NCBI GenBank assembly: GCA_013314815.1
Contig: JABUEY010000001.1
Location: 1 to 64,000 of the forward strand
Origin: Syntrophobacteraceae bacterium
GTDB taxonomy: Bacteria; Desulfobacterota; Syntrophobacteria; Syntrophobacterales; Syntrophobacteraceae
Length of the DNA stretch: 64,000 bases
Reading direction: 5' to 3'
Under the pieces are notes generated by a model, which saw only the letters and a list, made by a program, of their open reading frames with translations, had not been told where the DNA came from and did no database searches. This document shows positions 11,182 through 20,753 of this stretch, piece by piece. Position numbers and translations under genes: made by a program. Each line of letters begins with the position of its first letter. Within the stretch, counting starts at the first letter, position 1.

Positions 11182-12639
11182 TCAGGCACCTGGCGTGCTG
11201 GACGCCAATGCACCGGTTCTGTCAGGTCTCTGTTCGGCAGATTCCTTGACGGGAAGCACGAAATAGATCAGGTTCCCGTAGCGTTGAGGTTCGCACCCCA
11301 CGACTCCTCCATGGACCTCAACAACATTTCGCACGAAATTGAGCCCGTGACCCGTTCCCTGTTCGATTTCGGAACCGGCCCTTCGATACCCTTCCTCGAA
11401 TATCCTCTGCGCCTCCCCCTCCTGCAGAGGGACACCCGTGGTGAAGAAGTTGAACCGTACTCCGTGTATCCCTTCACCAAAGAAATCCTTCTGAATCTGC
11501 CGATTGTAGGAAACAAGCTTGATGGTGTTCCCCAGCTGGTCTTCCACCGCCCGGGTATACTTGACGGCATTGGAGAACAGGTTATCAAAAACCTGTGATA
11601 TCAAACCCTTATCAACGAAAAGAGTGATCTGCTCGTCAGGGACGTTTTCCAGGCGATTGTCCACGGCGATGCCCCTCTTTTCGAACAGAGGGAGGTATCG
11701 GTCGAGCAGCGGCTGGATGATCTCCGTACGAAAGTTGCACGACTGCTTTCTCAGGACATATGTGCCCTTTTCAAAATGGTCGCGTCGAAACAGGGCTTCA
11801 AGAAAAAGGCTGCTGTGTTCGTAATGCTTGGAAAGAGCCCTGCATTCGGCCTGGAGGTTTTGATTGTTCTCATCCAGCGCGTGGTATATCTCGCACAGAC
11901 TCCTGGACAAATCCCGGTCCTGATCCTGCAAAAACAGGATGACGTCCTTCAGCTGGCTCTGCACCCGGGCACTGGATTCCAGATGTCTCTTCAGGCGGAT
12001 CAGGAAAAGCTTGTAGTACAGATTCGGGGATATGACATTGTGTTCGACGTCGGAAACCAGTTGATTGATGAACTTGATGTGGTTGAGGTTCTGCTGGATC
12101 AGCATCTTCTGGTGCAGGTTGTACCCGATTCGATTGGTGAACTTCTCCAGGAAGAAATGCTTCTTCGCATCGACCCTGTCGTGGGGATAGATTTCAAACA
12201 TCCCCAGCAGGGAACTCTGAGTCAGGAACGGAATGAGTTTGGTCAGAGCTTCGTTTCCACGAATGGGAAACACCCATGCGTCTTCCGTTTCGCAGGGTTT
12301 TTCACAGATGCGTATGGAGTGGTTCAGGCGATGTTCCGGTGCGATAAGCCCTTCTTCGCTGGAGCAAACTTTCTCGAGCAGGGACGTCTTCGAATCGATA
12401 ATGTACAATCTGCTTTCGAGGTCCAGAAACTCCTTGGGAACCGCGGTGCATATCAGGTAAAGCGTCGGTATGCTTGTATATTCCTGAGCAAGGTCGAAAA
12501 AGGTTGCAAAGGCTTCCTCCTGCACCCGTTCGAAGCTGTACCGGCTGTACCTGTTCTTTTTCTCTCTGACTCTTTCCCTGATGTCCAAAGCCAAATCCTG
12601 CACCATTTTCGTATCCGTGATTGTATGGAGGCAAGGCAC
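11182..12639 (-). CDS. Sensor histidine kinase, soluble, atypical
   Basis: The 485-residue protein has no membrane segments. Residues up to about 190 look like a GAF-type sensory region with no family I can name. A dimerisation helix follows with a probable phospho-acceptor His in DVEHNVISPN. The ATPase domain shows an N-box (VFDNLFSNAVKYT) and a G2 box (GTGHGLNFV) ending with EVHGG. The G1 position reads FNFFTTGVPL, so the usual Asp of DxGxG is replaced by Thr. A GTG start at 12639 with GGGGAG five bases upstream is preferred; ATG at 12606 is the alternative. It sits between the hox and formate-channel genes and may sense redox state or formate; that is inference. No response regulator gene is adjacent. 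Confidence 0.8.
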   Translation of the reverse strand: MPCLHTITDTKMVQDLALDIRERVREKKNRYSRYSFERVQEEAFATFFDLAQEYTSIPTLYLICTAVPKEFLDLESRLYIIDSKTSLLEKVCSSEEGLIAPEHRLNHSIRICEKPCETEDAWVFPIRGNEALTKLIPFLTQSSLLGMFEIYPHDRVDAKKHFFLEKFTNRIGYNLHQKMLIQQNLNHIKFINQLVSDVEHNVISPNLYYKLFLIRLKRHLESSARVQSQLKDVILFLQDQDRDLSRSLCEIYHALDENNQNLQAECRALSKHYEHSSLFLEALFRRDHFEKGTYVLRKQSCNFRTEIIQPLLDRYLPLFEKRGIAVDNRLENVPDEQITLFVDKGLISQVFDNLFSNAVKYTRAVEDQLGNTIKLVSYNRQIQKDFFGEGIHGVRFNFFTTGVPLQEGEAQRIFEEGYRRAGSEIEQGTGHGLNFVRNVVEVHGGVVGCEPQRYGNLIYFVLPVKESAEQRPDRTGALASSTPGA

Positions 12640-13000
12640 TCAGTCTCCCCGCCGGGCGACGAGGCGATCCCGGAACGGAGGCGCACAAACAGGGGGGGCT
12701 TTGACAACGCGTGCTCAAGGCAAAGTGACGGCCCTTTATCGGGTTCTTCCCGATGAGATATTTTTGAAGTTTACCAACATTTTTGCGGTTACACAAGCGC
12801 GGCGTATCCTTCTGTTTGCACAATCGGGCCATTCACGAAGCCCCGGGCAGCGGGCAAGAAATGCAGCCAGGACCCTGAAGATCGATCGTCGCATTCGAAC
12901 CCGAACAGCCCCAACCACGCAAAATCCGATGGAACTTCGCGCTTTCCAGTTCTTGTGTCATCCGCCCCCAGAAGCGTCGATACTTTGTTAAATAATTCTC

Positions 13001-13027
13001 TTGACATTGATCTACCCGTTTTATAAT
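13001..13027 (+). promoter_or_regulatory. Putative sigma70-type promoter upstream of the formate channel gene
   Basis: A perfect -35 TTGACA (13001-13006) and a perfect -10 TATAAT (13022-13027) lie on the + strand. The spacer is 15 bases, shorter than the usual 16-18, which weakens the call. The surroundings are locally AT-rich in an otherwise GC-rich region. The next gene on this strand starts 658 bases downstream. Confidence 0.5.
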
Positions 13028-13317
13028 CTGCTCCCGTGTAAATTGTGCAGGAGATACGGTCTTTCCACCACATGACAAATCTGGCGGTGCAGTGTTCTGG
13101 TAGGAAAAGAGTCATTTGTTGCAATGGCGGGTCGCCTTGGCGGACTGAAAGAGGGGGACTGGAAGCTCGTCGCGAATACCCGGTTTCGCTCTACGGGTAA
13201 GGATATCTTGCAGGCAGTGCTGTAAAGGGAGCGGTGCAATACTTATCCGGTGCGGCGGGTGGGGCACGAAGGATTCGCAATCCGTCGGCGGCAGAAATCC
13301 AGCCGACCCGACAGTTG

Positions 13318-13331
13318 TGTGATTTTTCACA
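13318..13331. promoter_or_regulatory. Inverted repeat TGTGA-N4-TCACA
   Basis: A perfect dyad TGTGA-TTTT-TCACA lies between the putative promoter and the formate channel gene. The half-sites are those of CRP/FNR-superfamily operators, but CRP and HcpR sites normally have a six-base spacer and this has four. It could equally be a small RNA hairpin in the leader. Function is unproven. Confidence 0.35.
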
Positions 13332-13555
13332 ATATCTGTTTTGCGCTGTCCAGCACAAAGGAGAGGGGGGATAATCGTTCGGGCGGTGGTCCCGAGAGGA
13401 ACGGTACTTGGAGAAAGCAGATTCGGCGGTTCGAGCGGAAAATGCGGTTTCGAGAAGGAGTGTCGATGGCGGAAACTGGGTTGGCGGCGACACTCGCTGT
13501 GCGGAAGACTTCCTGTTCAGGTGGTAGCCGGTCCCGGCTTATTGAAGACTCTTTT

Positions 13556-13606
13556 ACGGAGAGTCCGCGGCGGCTGTTATCCGGGGTGGGTTCTCCGTAT
13601 TTTTTT
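13556..13606 (+). terminator. Terminator-like hairpin (possible attenuator) in the formate channel leader
   Basis: ACGGAGA (13556-13562) pairs perfectly with TCTCCGT (13592-13598), and the right arm is followed by A and a run of seven T. The 29-base loop is GC-rich and can fold further. The structure stops 79 bases before the formate channel ATG. It would end transcripts that start upstream, or act as a regulated attenuator. The seven-pair outer stem with a long loop makes it weaker than a classic terminator. Confidence 0.5.
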
Positions 13607-13684
13607 AGCAGGCATTTTTCGGGAAGTGAGCAAGCAGTTTTTAGAAGTATCAGCTAAACGAACTACATTTCAAGGAGGCCTATT

Positions 13685-14632
13685 ATGAGTAACGGCGGAG
13701 TTTCTATTGATGCGCTAATGCCCAAAGACATGGCTGTCAAGGCCGAAAACATCGGTATCGCAAAGGCCGGCCTTGGAGCATATCGAATGTTTGCTTTGGC
13801 TATTCTGGCCGGCGCTTTTATCGCCATGGGGGCGAACTATGCCACCACGGTCTGGTCGGGACTGGGTAAAATCGTCGTCAGTTCGGGCAGTGAAACCGTG
13901 TTCACCACCGGTCTTCCTTACGGCATCATCCGCCTTCTGGGAGGCATTGTGTTCGCCACGGGCCTGATCATGGTCGTCATCGGCGGATCTGAACTGTTCA
14001 CAGGCAACTGCCTTATTCCCATGGCATGGGCATCCAAGAAGGTCACCACCGGCTCCATGCTGCGCAACTGGGTCATCGTCTACATCGGCAACTTCGTCGG
14101 TTCCGTGCTCACTGCTTATCTTGTATTCCTCGGAGGGCAGCATACATTCGGAGGAGGCGCGGTAGGCGTGACGGCTCTCAACATCGGAATCGCCAAGAAC
14201 AGCCTCGGATTTCTCCAATGCACCGTTCTCGCCATCTTCTGTAACGCCCTGGTGTGCATGGCCGTGTGGATGTGCTTCAGTGCTCGAAGCAACGTAGACA
14301 AGGTCTTCGTGATCATTCCTCCGATATCGGCCTTCGTTGCGTGCGGGTTCGAGCACTGTGTGGCCAACATGTACTTCATCCCGTCGGCTCTCTTCATCAA
14401 AGACCTCGACCCCACTTTCTTCGCCAAAGTGGTCGGCGGTCTTAAGGACGGAGGCGCGGCTCTCACCTGGGGTACATTCCTGTTCAACAACCTGCTGCCC
14501 GCAACGATTGGAAATATCATCGGCGGTGCACTTATGGTCGGCGGGATGTACTGGTTCATCTATCTGAGGCCCAGTTGGACGGGGAAGGCTGCCATGGGCG
14601 GGATCCCCCTGACCGAGCAGCAGAAGAAGTAA
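13685..14632 (+). CDS. Formate/nitrite transporter family channel (FocA-like)
   Basis: The 315-residue membrane protein has the FNT pattern: an N-terminal amphipathic helix, six hydrophobic segments, and the conserved loop GGSELFTGNC (about residue 100), which matches the FocA/NirC signature. Further conserved spots are NWVIVYIGNFVGS and GNIIGGALMVG. A strong AAGGAGG site precedes the ATG. FNT proteins form pentamers that pass formate, nitrite or hydrosulfide. Its position between a hydrogenase operon and a formate dehydrogenase operon argues for formate, which could leave the cell as an electron carrier or enter as substrate. Substrate is inferred from context. Confidence 0.93.
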   Translation: MSNGGVSIDALMPKDMAVKAENIGIAKAGLGAYRMFALAILAGAFIAMGANYATTVWSGLGKIVVSSGSETVFTTGLPYGIIRLLGGIVFATGLIMVVIGGSELFTGNCLIPMAWASKKVTTGSMLRNWVIVYIGNFVGSVLTAYLVFLGGQHTFGGGAVGVTALNIGIAKNSLGFLQCTVLAIFCNALVCMAVWMCFSARSNVDKVFVIIPPISAFVACGFEHCVANMYFIPSALFIKDLDPTFFAKVVGGLKDGGAALTWGTFLFNNLLPATIGNIIGGALMVGGMYWFIYLRPSWTGKAAMGGIPLTEQQKK

Positions 14633-14660: not shown

Positions 14661-14718
14661 AACCCGCTCGGCCTGAAAGCTTGGTTATTTCCTCCGGCTT
14701 CAGGCGGGCGGGTTTTTT
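14661..14718 (+). terminator. Rho-independent terminator of the formate channel gene
   Basis: AACCCGC...GCCTGAA on the left pairs with TTCAGGC...GGCGGGTT on the right, followed directly by a T run (TTTTTT). It lies 29 bases after the channel stop codon. The structure is long and GC-rich, a textbook intrinsic terminator. Confidence 0.85.
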
Positions 14719-15057: not shown

Positions 15058-17760
15058 CTAGGCGACCTTCTCCACTCTCACAGCACACACCTTGTATTCG
15101 GGGATCTTGGCCTGAGGATCGAGTGCGGCCAGTGTGAGCTTGTTGGCCGCGGCCTCACTGAAGTGGAAGGGGACGAAGATCGTTCCTTCCTCCGTCATTT
15201 CTCCGACCCTCGCCTTGGCTTCCATCTGGCCCCGCCTCGTAACCAGCTTCACCCTATCAAGGTCCTTGATATTCAACCTGGCGGCGTCTTCCGTGTTGAT
15301 TTCCACCAGGCATTCGGAGTATCGCTCGTTCAATCCGACGGATCTTCTTGTCATGGTTCCTGTGTGGTATTGATACAGCACCCTGCCGGTGGTGAGCAGG
15401 AATGGATACTGGTCGTCGACGGGTTCCGCGGGCGGGATCCATTCGATGGCGTGGAACAGGCCCTTTCCGCGAACGAACTTGTCTTTGTGCAGGTATTTCG
15501 TTCCCGGATGCTCCTTGGTCGGACACGGCCACTGCAGACCGCCCGCATCGAGGCGCTGATAATCCATGCCCGCATACGAGGGTGTCACCGCACAGATTTC
15601 CTTGAAGATCGCCTCGGCGTCAGGATAGTTCATTTCGTATCCCATCCGTGAAGCGAGTGCCGCGATCGCCTGCCAGTCGGGAAGGGCCTTGCCGGGGGGA
15701 TCCACGGCCTTTCTGACTCTTTGCACGCGCCGCTCCGTGTTGGTAAACGTCCCTTCCTTTTCGGCAAAACAGGCGGCGGGCAGCACCACATCGGCCAACT
15801 GCGCGGTTTCCGTCAGGAAGATGTCCTGCACCACGAGGAAATCGAGGCTCTTCAGTCCCTCTTCCACATGGTGAAGATCCGGGTCGCTGACCATGGGGTT
15901 CTCACCCATAACGTACAGCGCCTTCACCTTCCCTTTCCCTGCCGCATCGATGGTCTCCACGATCGTCAGGCCGACATTTCCGGGCAGACTGTCCACTCCC
16001 CAGGCTTTGGCGAATTTCTCCCGGACATCGGGTATCGTCACGCTCTGGTACGCGGGGAACACGTTGGGCAGACATCCCATATCGCAAGCGCCCTGCACAT
16101 TGTTCTGCCCTCGAAGCGGGTTCACGCCGCCGCCTTCGATTCCGATATTCCCGCAGAGCATGGCGAGGTTGGCGACGCTCTTGACCGCGTCGGTTCCGTT
16201 GATATGCTGGGTAATACCCATGGCATACGCAATGGAAGCCGCGGGAGCAGAAGCATACAGCCTGGCCGCCGCAATCAGGTCGTCTTTGGGAATCCCCGAG
16301 ATTTCCTCGACTTTTTCGGGAGTATAGGCTGCAACAGCCTTCTTGAGCTCCTCGAAGCCTTCCGTTCTCTCATCCACGTACTTCTTGTCGTACAGCTCTT
16401 CCTTGATGATGACGTGCATCATGCCGTTGAGCCATGCCACGTCCGTTCCGGGCTTCTGCCTGAGCCAGATCTCGGCATGATCCACCAGGTCGATCTTGCG
16501 GGAATCGACTACGATCAGCTTGCACCTGCCGCTCTTGACCGCCCGCTTGATGGTCGATCCGATAACGGGATGCATCTCGGTCGTGTTTGACCCGGTAACG
16601 AGAATGACGTCGGAATTTTTCAAATCGTCGATGGAGTTCGTCATGGCACCGCTTCCGAACGATGTCGCGAGACCGGCCACGGTGGAGGCATGACAGAGCC
16701 GGGCGCAGTGATCGATGTTGTTGGTTCCGATCACCGCGCGCGCGAACTTGTTCAAAAGATAGTTTTCCTCGTTGGTGCAGCGTGCCGAAGAAAAGAAGGC
16801 CAGGGCATCCGGGCCGCTTTCTTTCCGGATGCTCTCGAACCGCCCGGCTATCCTGTCCAGAGCCTCCTCCCAGCTCGCTTGCCTGAACTCACCGTTCTCC
16901 TTGATCAAGGGAGTCGTCAGCCGGTCCGGATGATCGATGAAATCATTGCCGAACCTTCCCTTCACACATAGACTGCCTTGGTTGGGACCCGGGATTTCGT
17001 GGTCGGACGTGACCTTGACCACCTTGTTGTCCTTGACGTTGAGTTCCAGCTGGCAGCCCACTCCACAATACGTACACGTGGTGGCCACCTTCTTCAGTTC
17101 CCACGGACGCCCACGGAACCTTGCCTGCTTGTAGGTAAGGGCTCCGGTGGGACACGAGGCCACGCATTCCCCGCAGAACACGCACGTGCTGTCCTTGAGA
17201 GACTGGTGGTTGAAGGTGGTGATATAGGAATCCGATCCTCTTGCCGCCACATCGATCACTCCATTGACCTGCACTTCCAGGCACGCACGCACACACCGTC
17301 CGCACAGAACGCACTTGTTCTGGTCGCGAACGATCATGGTGTTGGAATCGTCTTTGGGGTGAGGCTTGAATTCCCCTTTAAAACGCACCTTCTCGATGCC
17401 GTGCTCGTAGACCAGGTCCTGCAGTTCGCAGTTGCCCGTCTGTTCGCAAAGAAGACAGTTGTGGTCTCCATAGGCCAGAAGCAGCTCGAGAACCGTCTTT
17501 CTCACCCGCATCAGCCGGTCCGTGTGCGTGGTTACCTCCATCCCGTCCGTGGCTGGTGTGGTGCACGACGGCGGCAGACCCCGCATGTTCTGGATTTCAA
17601 CGATGCACAGACGACAGCCGCCGTACGGGGGCATCTTGGGGTGATAGCAAAGGGTCGGGACGTGTATCCCATTGGCTCTGCACACCTCGAGTACGGTCTG
17701 CCCCTTTCTGCCCTGGACGCTCTTTCCGTTTACCGTCAGGGTGATGATTTCGTTTTCCAT
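15058..17760 (-). CDS. fdhA: NAD-dependent formate dehydrogenase, catalytic (molybdo/tungstopterin) subunit
   Basis: The 900-residue protein has a NuoG-like N-terminus ([2Fe-2S] cysteines, a CLLCEQTGNC cluster region, CVLCGRCVRAC and CVFCGECVASC), then a bis-pterin oxidoreductase core starting at CTYCGVGCQLEL. The active-site motif is CARLCHASTVAGL: Cys stands where selenocysteine occurs in FdhF-type enzymes, followed by the conserved His. A C-terminal MopB-binding domain closes the protein. The ATG at 17760 is chosen because AGAGGA lies just upstream; an in-frame start 33 bases earlier lacks one. It oxidises formate to CO2 or the reverse. No Tat signal is present, so the complex is cytoplasmic. 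Confidence 0.93.
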   Translation of the reverse strand: MENEIITLTVNGKSVQGRKGQTVLEVCRANGIHVPTLCYHPKMPPYGGCRLCIVEIQNMRGLPPSCTTPATDGMEVTTHTDRLMRVRKTVLELLLAYGDHNCLLCEQTGNCELQDLVYEHGIEKVRFKGEFKPHPKDDSNTMIVRDQNKCVLCGRCVRACLEVQVNGVIDVAARGSDSYITTFNHQSLKDSTCVFCGECVASCPTGALTYKQARFRGRPWELKKVATTCTYCGVGCQLELNVKDNKVVKVTSDHEIPGPNQGSLCVKGRFGNDFIDHPDRLTTPLIKENGEFRQASWEEALDRIAGRFESIRKESGPDALAFFSSARCTNEENYLLNKFARAVIGTNNIDHCARLCHASTVAGLATSFGSGAMTNSIDDLKNSDVILVTGSNTTEMHPVIGSTIKRAVKSGRCKLIVVDSRKIDLVDHAEIWLRQKPGTDVAWLNGMMHVIIKEELYDKKYVDERTEGFEELKKAVAAYTPEKVEEISGIPKDDLIAAARLYASAPAASIAYAMGITQHINGTDAVKSVANLAMLCGNIGIEGGGVNPLRGQNNVQGACDMGCLPNVFPAYQSVTIPDVREKFAKAWGVDSLPGNVGLTIVETIDAAGKGKVKALYVMGENPMVSDPDLHHVEEGLKSLDFLVVQDIFLTETAQLADVVLPAACFAEKEGTFTNTERRVQRVRKAVDPPGKALPDWQAIAALASRMGYEMNYPDAEAIFKEICAVTPSYAGMDYQRLDAGGLQWPCPTKEHPGTKYLHKDKFVRGKGLFHAIEWIPPAEPVDDQYPFLLTTGRVLYQYHTGTMTRRSVGLNERYSECLVEINTEDAARLNIKDLDRVKLVTRRGQMEAKARVGEMTEEGTIFVPFHFSEAAANKLTLAALDPQAKIPEYKVCAVRVEKVA

Positions 17761-17813
17761 TGTTCCTCTCTCAGTCCTTTTGGGATCCATCACATTATGA
17801 TCACAGACACATG

Positions 17814-19622
17814 TCAGTCTATTGCATGATACTTACATGCCAGGATGCACGACCGGCACTTGATGCACTTGTCCTTGTCGATCACCGCCGGCTGCTTTTT
17901 CACCCACGTGACCGCCTCGGCCGGACATGCCTTGAAACAGGCTCCGCACATCTTGCAGTTTTCCTCGTTCACCTCGAACTTGATCAGATCCACGCACACC
18001 CGCGCAGGGCATTCCCTGTTGATGATGTGCGCCTCGTATTCGTCCCTGAAATACCGGATGGTCGAGAGCACCGGGTTGGGAGCCGTCTGACCGAGACCGC
18101 ACAGGGAGCCGCCCTTGATGTCTTCGGCCAGTTCCATCAGCTGATTGAAATCCCGCATGTTGGCCCTGCCCGCGCAGATATCCTGCAAAATCTCGAGCAT
18201 CTTCTTCGTGCCCAGCCTGCACGGAACACACTTGCCGCACGATTCCTTCTGGGTAAAGGTCAGAAAGAACCTGGCCATATCCACCATGCAGGTGGTCTCG
18301 TCCGTGACGATCAGACCCCCCGATCCCATGATGGATCCGATCTGGGTCAGGTTCTCATAGTCCATGGGAGTCTCGAAATGACTCGCCGGGATGCACCCTC
18401 CCGATGGTCCTCCCGTCTGGGCCGCCTTGAACTTGCGCTTGTTCGGAATGCCGCCCCCGATCTCCTCGATGATTTCCTTCAGAGGCGTCCCCATGGGAAT
18501 CTCAACCAGCCCGCTGTAGTTGATCTTTCCGGCCAGGGCAAAAACCTTCGTCCCCTTGCTCCTTTCCGTCCCCACACTGGCAAACCAGTCTCCCCCCTTG
18601 GTCATGACCACCGGGATGTTGGCAAAAGTCTCCACGTTGTTGATATTGGTCGGCTTTCCAAAAAGCCCCTTCACCGCGGGAAACGGAGGCCTCGGATTGG
18701 GCATGCCCCGCTTGCCTTCAATGGACGCCATAAGAGCCGTCTCCTCCCCGCATACGAACGCCCCCGCTCCCAGCTTGAGCTTGATCTCGAAATCAAAGCC
18801 CGAATCGAAGATGTTCTTTCCCAGGTATCCCCGGTCCGTTGCCTGCTCGATGGCGATGAGCGACCGCTCGTAGGCCATGGGATATTCTGCACGGCAGTAA
18901 ATGTATGCCTTGGTCGCCCCGATCGCATACCCGGCGATCATCATCCCTTCCAGCACGCTGTGCGGATCCCCCTCGAGCACCGCACGGTCCATAAAGGCCC
19001 CAGGGTCCCCTTCATCGGCGTTGCAGATCAGGTACTTCTGATCCCCCGGCGAACGATGACAGAACTCCCACTTCATCCCCGTGGGAAAACCTCCACCTCC
19101 TCGGCCCCTGAGCCCCGACTTCTTCACCTCGTTGATTACATCGACCTGGGACATGCGAAGGGCTTTCCGGATTCCTTCATAGCCCCCTACACTGATGTAG
19201 TCGTCGATGTCCTCGGGATTGACAAACCCGCAGTTGCGCAAAACTATCCTGCGCTGCGGATTGAAAAACTTCATGTCCCTGTAGTCGAAAACCTTTTCCT
19301 TGCTCTTGGGATCCACAAACAACAGCCGCTCCACATGGCCGCCGTTCATCAGGTCCGCCTCCACAATCTCCGACACATCCTCGGGCTGCACATTGCAGTA
19401 AAACGTCCCCGCAGGCATGATGACCACCGTGGGCCCCATCTGGCACAGCCCATGGCAGCCCGTGAATTTCACCTCCACCAGGCCCGTCAGCCCGTGCTTT
19501 CGAACTTCATCCTGAAGGTTGGAATAGATGAGGTTGGCCTTCTGCGACTCGCACCCGGTCCCCCGGCAAACAAGGACCTGGTGACCTATGTCTGGCTTCG
19601 ATTTACTAGCTTCCGCTCCCAT
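17814..19622 (-). CDS. fdhB: Formate dehydrogenase, NAD/FMN-binding subunit with ferredoxin extension
   Basis: The 602-residue protein is a HoxF/NuoF homologue: N-terminal thioredoxin-like [2Fe-2S] domain (CRGTGCESQ, GCHGLCQMGP), NuoF core ([36 protein letters not shown]), the [4Fe-4S] motif ESCGKCVPCRLGT, then a C-terminal ferredoxin domain with two [4Fe-4S] motifs, CKMCGACFKACP and CIKCRSCILAC. The C-terminal extension is the layout of the HydB subunits of electron-bifurcating hydrogenases. The ATG overlaps the end of the NuoE-like gene by 17 bases and follows a GGAGA site. It passes electrons between FdhA and NAD(H), possibly with ferredoxin involved. Confidence 0.93.
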   Translation of the reverse strand: MGAEASKSKPDIGHQVLVCRGTGCESQKANLIYSNLQDEVRKHGLTGLVEVKFTGCHGLCQMGPTVVIMPAGTFYCNVQPEDVSEIVEADLMNGGHVERLLFVDPKSKEKVFDYRDMKFFNPQRRIVLRNCGFVNPEDIDDYISVGGYEGIRKALRMSQVDVINEVKKSGLRGRGGGGFPTGMKWEFCHRSPGDQKYLICNADEGDPGAFMDRAVLEGDPHSVLEGMMIAGYAIGATKAYIYCRAEYPMAYERSLIAIEQATDRGYLGKNIFDSGFDFEIKLKLGAGAFVCGEETALMASIEGKRGMPNPRPPFPAVKGLFGKPTNINNVETFANIPVVMTKGGDWFASVGTERSKGTKVFALAGKINYSGLVEIPMGTPLKEIIEEIGGGIPNKRKFKAAQTGGPSGGCIPASHFETPMDYENLTQIGSIMGSGGLIVTDETTCMVDMARFFLTFTQKESCGKCVPCRLGTKKMLEILQDICAGRANMRDFNQLMELAEDIKGGSLCGLGQTAPNPVLSTIRYFRDEYEAHIINRECPARVCVDLIKFEVNEENCKMCGACFKACPAEAVTWVKKQPAVIDKDKCIKCRSCILACKYHAID

Positions 19623-20058
19623 TCAACATCTCCATAATCTTCTCGGGTTTTACTCTGCCGAATGTATCCTTGTTGACAACCATGGCCGGAGCCAGGGCGC
19701 ACGCGCCGATGCACGCCACCGTTTCCAGCGTGAACCGCCCATCGGCTGTCGTCTGGCCAGGTCTGATCCCCAGCCGGCTCTGTACCTCCTCCAAAACCCT
19801 CGCACCCCCCATGACATGGCATGCCGTGCCCTGGCATACCATTACCAGGTTCCTTCCCACAGGGCTGAACTTGAATTGTGCATAAAACGTCGAAACTCCA
19901 TACACCTCCACAGGCGCCACTCGACAAAACCGGGCCGCAGCCTCCATGGCCTCCGGCGGCAGATACCCATATTCCGCCTGGATATCCTGCAATACCGGTA
20001 TCAGCGCATCACGTGTGCCGTGATGCCGGGAAAAGATTTGGTCCAGTTGCTCTTTCAT
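19606..20058 (-). CDS. fdhC: Formate dehydrogenase, NuoE-like [2Fe-2S] subunit
   Basis: The 150-residue protein is a NuoE/HoxE paralogue with IQAEYGYLPPEAME, YGVSTFYAQF, and the [2Fe-2S] cysteines in CQGTACHVMG and ACIGACALAP. The ATG at 20058 follows GGGGGAGA at a normal distance; an upstream in-frame TTG at 20079 is less likely. It is the first gene of a three-gene operon whose products resemble the HydABC/FdhABC NAD-linked type. The symbol is by position only; this gene is not related to FdhC-type transporters. Confidence 0.92.
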   Translation of the reverse strand: MKEQLDQIFSRHHGTRDALIPVLQDIQAEYGYLPPEAMEAAARFCRVAPVEVYGVSTFYAQFKFSPVGRNLVMVCQGTACHVMGGARVLEEVQSRLGIRPGQTTADGRFTLETVACIGACALAPAMVVNKDTFGRVKPEKIMEMLNGSGS

Positions 20059-20753
20059 CGCCGATCTCCCCCATATCAATTGGATATTATTACATTAATA
20101 GACATGAGTGTCCCAACGAAGCCTTGGCGCACTGCAGAATGCTGTATCGCCTGTGGCTCTGCTGATGACAGCTTGGAATCTGTGATCCATCGGTTCAAAA
20201 CCGGCTGCAGGATGCGCAACGGGAGGTCCCCGACGATGCGGCTTCCTGTCCGCCAGGTCTAAAACGACAGAGCGGGAGGGGTATTCCAGGTTTGATTGTC
20301 GAAGTCCGGATGGAGGGCGGTCAGCTCGGCAGGCGGACTTCGCAACGCCAATATCCTATTGGCCTGGAAGCCCTACTTCACAACTGGATATTCACGAATT
20401 GCATTCTCATTGAGAAAAGATCCCGTGAGTCTGTAAGAGAGCGGCTCATGTTGCCATTGTGAAATAGTTCACTTAAACGAACGCAAGCTCGTTTTCATCG
20501 CCTCATGGACAGCTTCCATACTCAATTGCCGATCCAGGGTGGCACTGATCTTACCGGCACCCGGACCTTCGTGTCCAATAGGAAAAAATAATGGAAACAG
20601 CGCAATCAAAAGGAAAAGCCTTCTTCTGCTTCCGCAATGGCCGTGCAAGGGATCATGCGAAGCAAGGCAGCCTGGTCTTTGAACCCGAGCCCGCTCGCCT
20701 GGCCGAACCTTTGCAGGCATCCTGTTTCCGGCCTGCGGTTTTCCGCCGGTCCG
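20059..20753. other. Intergenic region upstream of fdh and downstream of the efflux operon
   Basis: About 695 bases. Near the fdh start the sequence is AT-rich (20080-20105) with a weak promoter-like TTGGGA-N18-TAATAA on the - strand. A perfect dyad lies at 20347-20363 and a smaller one, TTCTCA-T-TGAGAA, at 20404-20416. An 83-codon open frame on the - strand (20469-20720) has a protein-like end but no recognisable domain or convincing ribosome site, and I do not call it. I see no strong terminator for the efflux operon. Confidence 0.45.
20347..20363. promoter_or_regulatory. Perfect inverted repeat GCCAATA-TCC-TATTGGC
   Basis: Two 7-base half-sites flank a 3-base centre, about 290 bases upstream of the first formate dehydrogenase gene. 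A 17-base dyad of this kind is typical of a dimeric repressor or activator site. The binding protein is unknown and the distance is large, so the target is not certain. Confidence 0.4.

Follow-up and report, generated by a model that had tools for sequence, protein, structure and literature searches.

A long focA leader with a Rex-type site and an intrinsic terminator in a Syntrophobacteraceae bacterium: candidate redox control of formate export

The focA locus and its promoter

The window, i.e., the whole stretch of 64,000 nucleotides analyzed here, carries a gene of the formate/nitrite transporter family, focA, which is preceded by a long leader and faces the formate dehydrogenase operon fdhE-F-A. 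The following elements are considered (positions are those of the window):

13001-13027, plus strand: sigma-70 type promoter TTGACA-N15-TATAAT, 12/12 hexamer matches, short spacer
13034-13684, plus strand: long untranslated focA leader, its start predicted from the location of the -10 element; rich in G (GC skew +0.24) and free of gene-like ORFs
13315-13332, unstranded: Rex-type operator TTGTGTGATTTTTCACAA, 2 mismatches to TTGTGAA-N4-TTCACAA
13466-13657, plus strand: 63-codon ATG ORF with Shine-Dalgarno sequence AAGGAGTG, which spans the terminator and does not look coding
13547-13565, plus strand: short hairpin GACTCT/AGAGTC (-9.7 kcal/mol), candidate antiterminator
13555-13606, plus strand: intrinsic terminator, 17-bp hairpin (-23 kcal/mol) followed by T7
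13672-13678, plus strand: focA Shine-Dalgarno sequence AAGGAGG
13685-14632, plus strand: focA, formate/nitrite transporter family (PF01226, 2.4e-73)
14663-14718, plus strand: intrinsic terminator after focA (-29 kcal/mol, T6)
15058-20079, minus strand: fdhE-F-A operon
20457-20474, unstranded: second Rex-type site TTGTGAAATAGTTCACTT, intergenic, approximately 380 nt before fdhE-F-A

The two terminators are of the same class, and focA appears to be monocistronic. On its other side, across an intergenic region of 1 kb, lies a divergently oriented histidine kinase gene with a HATPase domain (11182-12639), the product of which is a possible regulator.

Both promoter hexamers are exact, with the -35 element at 13001-13006 and the -10 element at 13022-13027. 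The spacer measures 15 nt, such that a standard promoter scan, which allows spacers of 16-18 nt, misses this promoter. In good accordance with the earlier note, which had placed the pair about 658 bases before the ATG, the -10 element ends 657 nt upstream of the focA start codon at 13685. The whole 4.06-Mb genome contains five exact TTGACA-N15..19-TATAAT pairs, compared to one in the reversed control. All four other pairs are located upstream of a co-directional gene, which argues that 13001-13027 is likewise a promoter, and we hold this with high confidence. On the plus strand, neither the region between promoter and terminator nor the last 79 nt before focA contains a promoter-like site with at least 9 of 12 matches.

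The statement that no supportable gene lies in between holds as well: for the ORFs in 12640-13684, the Pfam search gave zero matches and none shows coding-like codon usage, which speaks against a hidden gene in the leader. As DNA, the leader is present in a single copy in its own genome, and a search of 56 genomes of the class returned only itself and short partial matches. The best of the latter, 41 nt at 13580-13620 that overlap the terminator, matches the ispG antisense strand of the relative G021 at 85% identity (E 1.5e-5); since no such match exists in the own genome, it is probably due to chance.

Rex-type sites in the window, the genome and the family

The canonical Rex operator is TTGTGAA-W4-TTCACAA (PMC2883068). 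The leader element TTGTGTGATTTTTCACAA is an 18-bp palindrome of this form whose two mismatches both fall within one half-site, and it is located 287 nt after the -10 element. Sites with at most two mismatches occur only twice in the 64 kb, once before focA and once before fdhEFA; shuffled versions of the window yield 0.09 such sites each, with 0.5% of them reaching at least two. The genome encodes a full-length Rex (PF06971, 1.3e-20; NCBIfam Rex equivalog, 315 bits). Other sites of Rex form are found in the genome approximately 560 nt before nuoA and before hdrA- and hdrC-like genes, the names of the latter two being based on inspection by eye and ferredoxin-domain matches only. Judging from these elements, the Rex site of the focA leader is probably functional, while repression from an operator 287 nt past the -10 element is putative. 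A reading of the palindrome as a CRP site was set aside: Rex is favored by the TTGTGAA-N4-TTCACAA form, by the presence of a rex gene and by the identity of the targets.

Two loci related to this subject are recorded in passing. Locus L143 carries, from approximately position 1615, an HdrA-like gene with an in-frame TGA (...NDCAM-TGA-IISPKL...), about 115 nt after a Rex-like site; by its sequence, it probably encodes a selenoprotein. On L149, rex is located close to ATP synthase genes, with an AtpB-like protein on the same locus.

Within the family, six of eight focA leaders contain a Rex-like site with at most three mismatches, the expectation by chance being 3-13% per leader, and the best site in the relatives' leaders has a single mismatch. 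In three relatives (G013, G019 and G021) the -10 element is followed by the site at a distance of 45-46 nt, and the G021 leader has little other sequence in common with the other two. Family-wide, one-mismatch Rex places number 18, compared to 5 in the reversed control. In the S. fumaroxidans-like genome G004, a one-mismatch Rex-type site precedes the first gene of fdhEFA-focA by 27 nt; here, as in one copy in G014, focA directly follows a formate dehydrogenase gene. Since Rex-type sites are found both before focA leaders and before this fdhEFA-focA cluster, the site seems to stay with the formate genes while gene order changes. The order in G004 fits that published for S. fumaroxidans, where Fdh1 is Sfum_2703-2706 and the formate transporter Sfum_2707 (PMC8691401).

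The leader terminator and alternative readings

The sequence 13555-13599 folds into a single hairpin (-23.0 kcal/mol) with 14 outer and 3 inner pairs, directly followed by the T tract at 13600-13606, which ends 79 nt before the focA ATG. This is the G+C-rich stable hairpin plus T tract of an intrinsic terminator, and it is sited as an attenuator would be, between the promoter and the controlled gene. The stem ACGGAGA/TCTCCGT with seven T at this distance, described previously, is thus real and longer than stated (17 bp instead of 7 bp). The hairpin has a z-score of -3.0, with 6 of 1,000 shuffles equally stable, and shuffling of the intergenic region produced a run of at least six T with a hairpin of -20 kcal/mol or lower in 29 of 3,000 cases. 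On these grounds, a functional terminator is very likely. In the global fold of the leader the terminator is not formed (pairing probability 0.03); despite this, co-transcriptional folding should favor the local hairpin. Judged by folding, the short hairpin at 13547-13565 is a possible competitor for the 5' arm of the terminator. A conserved antiterminator did not emerge, and neither a sensor element nor a leader peptide nor a binding site for an antiterminator protein was identifiable in the leader.

Eight focA leaders, that of the window and seven of the family, were compared by pairwise local alignment. The window leader reveals no similarity to the seven others (z at most 1.3), and only the same-genus pairs G006/G014 and G013/G019 can be aligned along their length. 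The earlier note had made its proposal depend on conservation of the leader in relatives with the same gene; at the level of sequence this fails, and the layout alone recurs. G006 and G014, two species of a related genus, share a conserved focA leader, at the end of which an intrinsic terminator (-23.6 and -22.5 kcal/mol; z -4.7 and -5.4) leaves 49-57 nt to the start codon. Because the gap after this terminator hardly holds a separate promoter, focA is probably read through it in these genomes. Most relatives are without a strong terminator before focA, and hence, the terminator is not a general need. Attenuation in the window draws its support from the recurrence of the terminator layout rather than from sequence conservation.

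On L007 (1300-1497) and L013 (minus strand, 328-530), from two species of one genus, lies a conserved focA leader with a strong intrinsic terminator. Just upstream of the terminator, both carry TGCGG-GCTTA-CCGCA, which could act as an antiterminator hairpin. L013 additionally contains, at approximately 973-986, a palindrome that is a perfect FNR-type site by form, TTGATTTAGATCAA, in the interval separating focA from a divergent gene resembling that of hybrid cluster protein (hcp).

The earlier note had seen in this locus the layout of attenuation or of a small RNA. The former part stands as a plausible reading, given the promoter, the terminator, the lack of a promoter-like site between them and the leader with terminator in a related genus; that termination before focA is regulated is a tentative step further, to which we give slightly less than even weight.

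The terminator might instead be constitutive and partial, imposing a fixed, unregulated reduction of focA output and leaving all control to Rex and the promoter. The evidence for Rex does not depend on RNA, several relatives combine a Rex-like site with the lack of a terminator, and a conserved antiterminator was not seen. However, three genomes from two genera share the presence of a strong terminator, and in each of the three (the window and the L007 and L013 sequences) a short hairpin overlaps its 5' arm. We consider this reading unlikely.

A free-standing small RNA of approximately 570 nt ending at 13606, with focA expressed from its own downstream promoter or by leakage, would account for a gene-free stretch bracketed by promoter and terminator. 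Yet the 79 nt before focA contain no promoter-like match on the plus strand, the gap after the terminator in G006 and G014 is too short for a promoter, the single-copy leader has no relative elsewhere in the family, and absence of CsrA excludes a sponge RNA of the CsrB type. This makes the small RNA a rather improbable rival to attenuation.

The expression-platform-like arrangement behind a long upstream region would also suit a new metabolite-binding riboswitch for formate or a redox cofactor that controls the terminator. But no Rfam family matched the leader at the gathering threshold or at E 5, which agrees with the previous statement that no known riboswitch class was recognizable, and among the relatives' focA loci the search gave nothing beyond one weak chance match. 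The leader folds no better than its shuffles (z -0.97), and relatives carrying focA show no conserved, covarying aptamer. The formate- or redox-sensing RNA proposed earlier is therefore unsupported and very improbable; the accompanying guess of redox control gains support, albeit through Rex operators in the DNA and not through RNA.

Finally, a ribosome on the 63-codon ORF, which the earlier note had overlooked, would melt the terminator, and the well-spaced Shine-Dalgarno sequence AAGGAGTG before its ATG, its course across the terminator and its stop 27 nt upstream of focA would permit such coupling; however, with a per-codon usage score of -0.19, lower than the 5th percentile for coding segments, no Pfam match and no counterpart in the relatives' leaders, the ORF is at most a leader peptide, and translation-coupled attenuation is highly unlikely.

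A model of focA control and its relation to known systems

We somewhat favor a model in which a sigma-70 promoter drives transcription of a long leader, Rex confers redox control, and the intrinsic terminator serves as an attenuator. This model is based on the sequence elements, on the rex gene of this genome, and on the fact that Rex-like sites and the terminator layout recur in relatives; from these we infer promoter use, Rex binding and read-through, with regulated termination as a candidate addition. RNA polymerase would start from 13001-13027 and produce a leader of approximately 650 nt in a single-gene focA unit. Rex, a repressor sensing NADH/NAD+, would bind at 13315-13332 and probably block the passing polymerase there, within the transcribed leader. 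Release of Rex by high NADH is established in other bacteria, and here it would free the leader operator. At the terminator, a substantial fraction of transcripts would stop short of focA, the expression of which would hence depend on read-through, i.e., attenuation. Rex and terminator together would link formate export both to the redox state and to how strongly the NADH-linked formate dehydrogenase is expressed; release of Rex would raise both the dehydrogenase and formate export, as suits a syntroph that sheds electrons as formate. A more ambitious version, in which a regulated attenuator and a Rex roadblock in one leader couple export to NADH and a second signal sensed by an undescribed RNA or RNA-binding protein, strikes us as a long shot.

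The transfer of formate between species is one of the central questions of syntrophy. In S. fumaroxidans, the formate transporter varies up to 60-fold depending on the partner, and the partial text of PMC8691401 names no regulator for it. Rex-type sites before formate dehydrogenase and formate channel offer a simple, testable cause: at high NADH, repression would be relieved and the route for formate opened. In addition, focA might be gated a second time by the terminator. A literature search on focA attenuation, formate riboswitches and a link between Rex and focA found nothing relevant.

Among known systems, the CsrB/RsmZ sponge RNAs resemble the purine-rich, non-coding leader with its terminator and nine A(N)GGA motifs, but here the motif excess is weak (50 of 1,000 shuffles reach it) and a search of the genome found no CsrA, while control genomes scored positive; a sponge RNA was therefore rejected. 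With the intrinsic-terminator attenuators of 5' leaders, the locus shares the promoter, the long leader, the strong terminator near the gene and the short, potentially competing hairpin; it differs in the lack of an identified sensing component. The Rex regulon agrees in length and spacing of the palindrome, in the presence of rex and in sites before NADH-linked and energy-metabolism genes, to which the formate genes fit; in contrast, the predicted operator here lies deep in the leader and carries two mismatches. The fdh1-focA operon of Syntrophobacter fumaroxidans (Sfum_2703-2707) comprises the same genes, with the Rex-type site of G004 directly upstream, but there no leader separates focA from the preceding dehydrogenase genes (PMC8691401), whereas focA of the window is a separate unit, convergent with fdh and with a long leader of its own. 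The Rex-type operator and the terminator-gated leader would thus be elements of known kinds, with a testable link to interspecies formate transfer.
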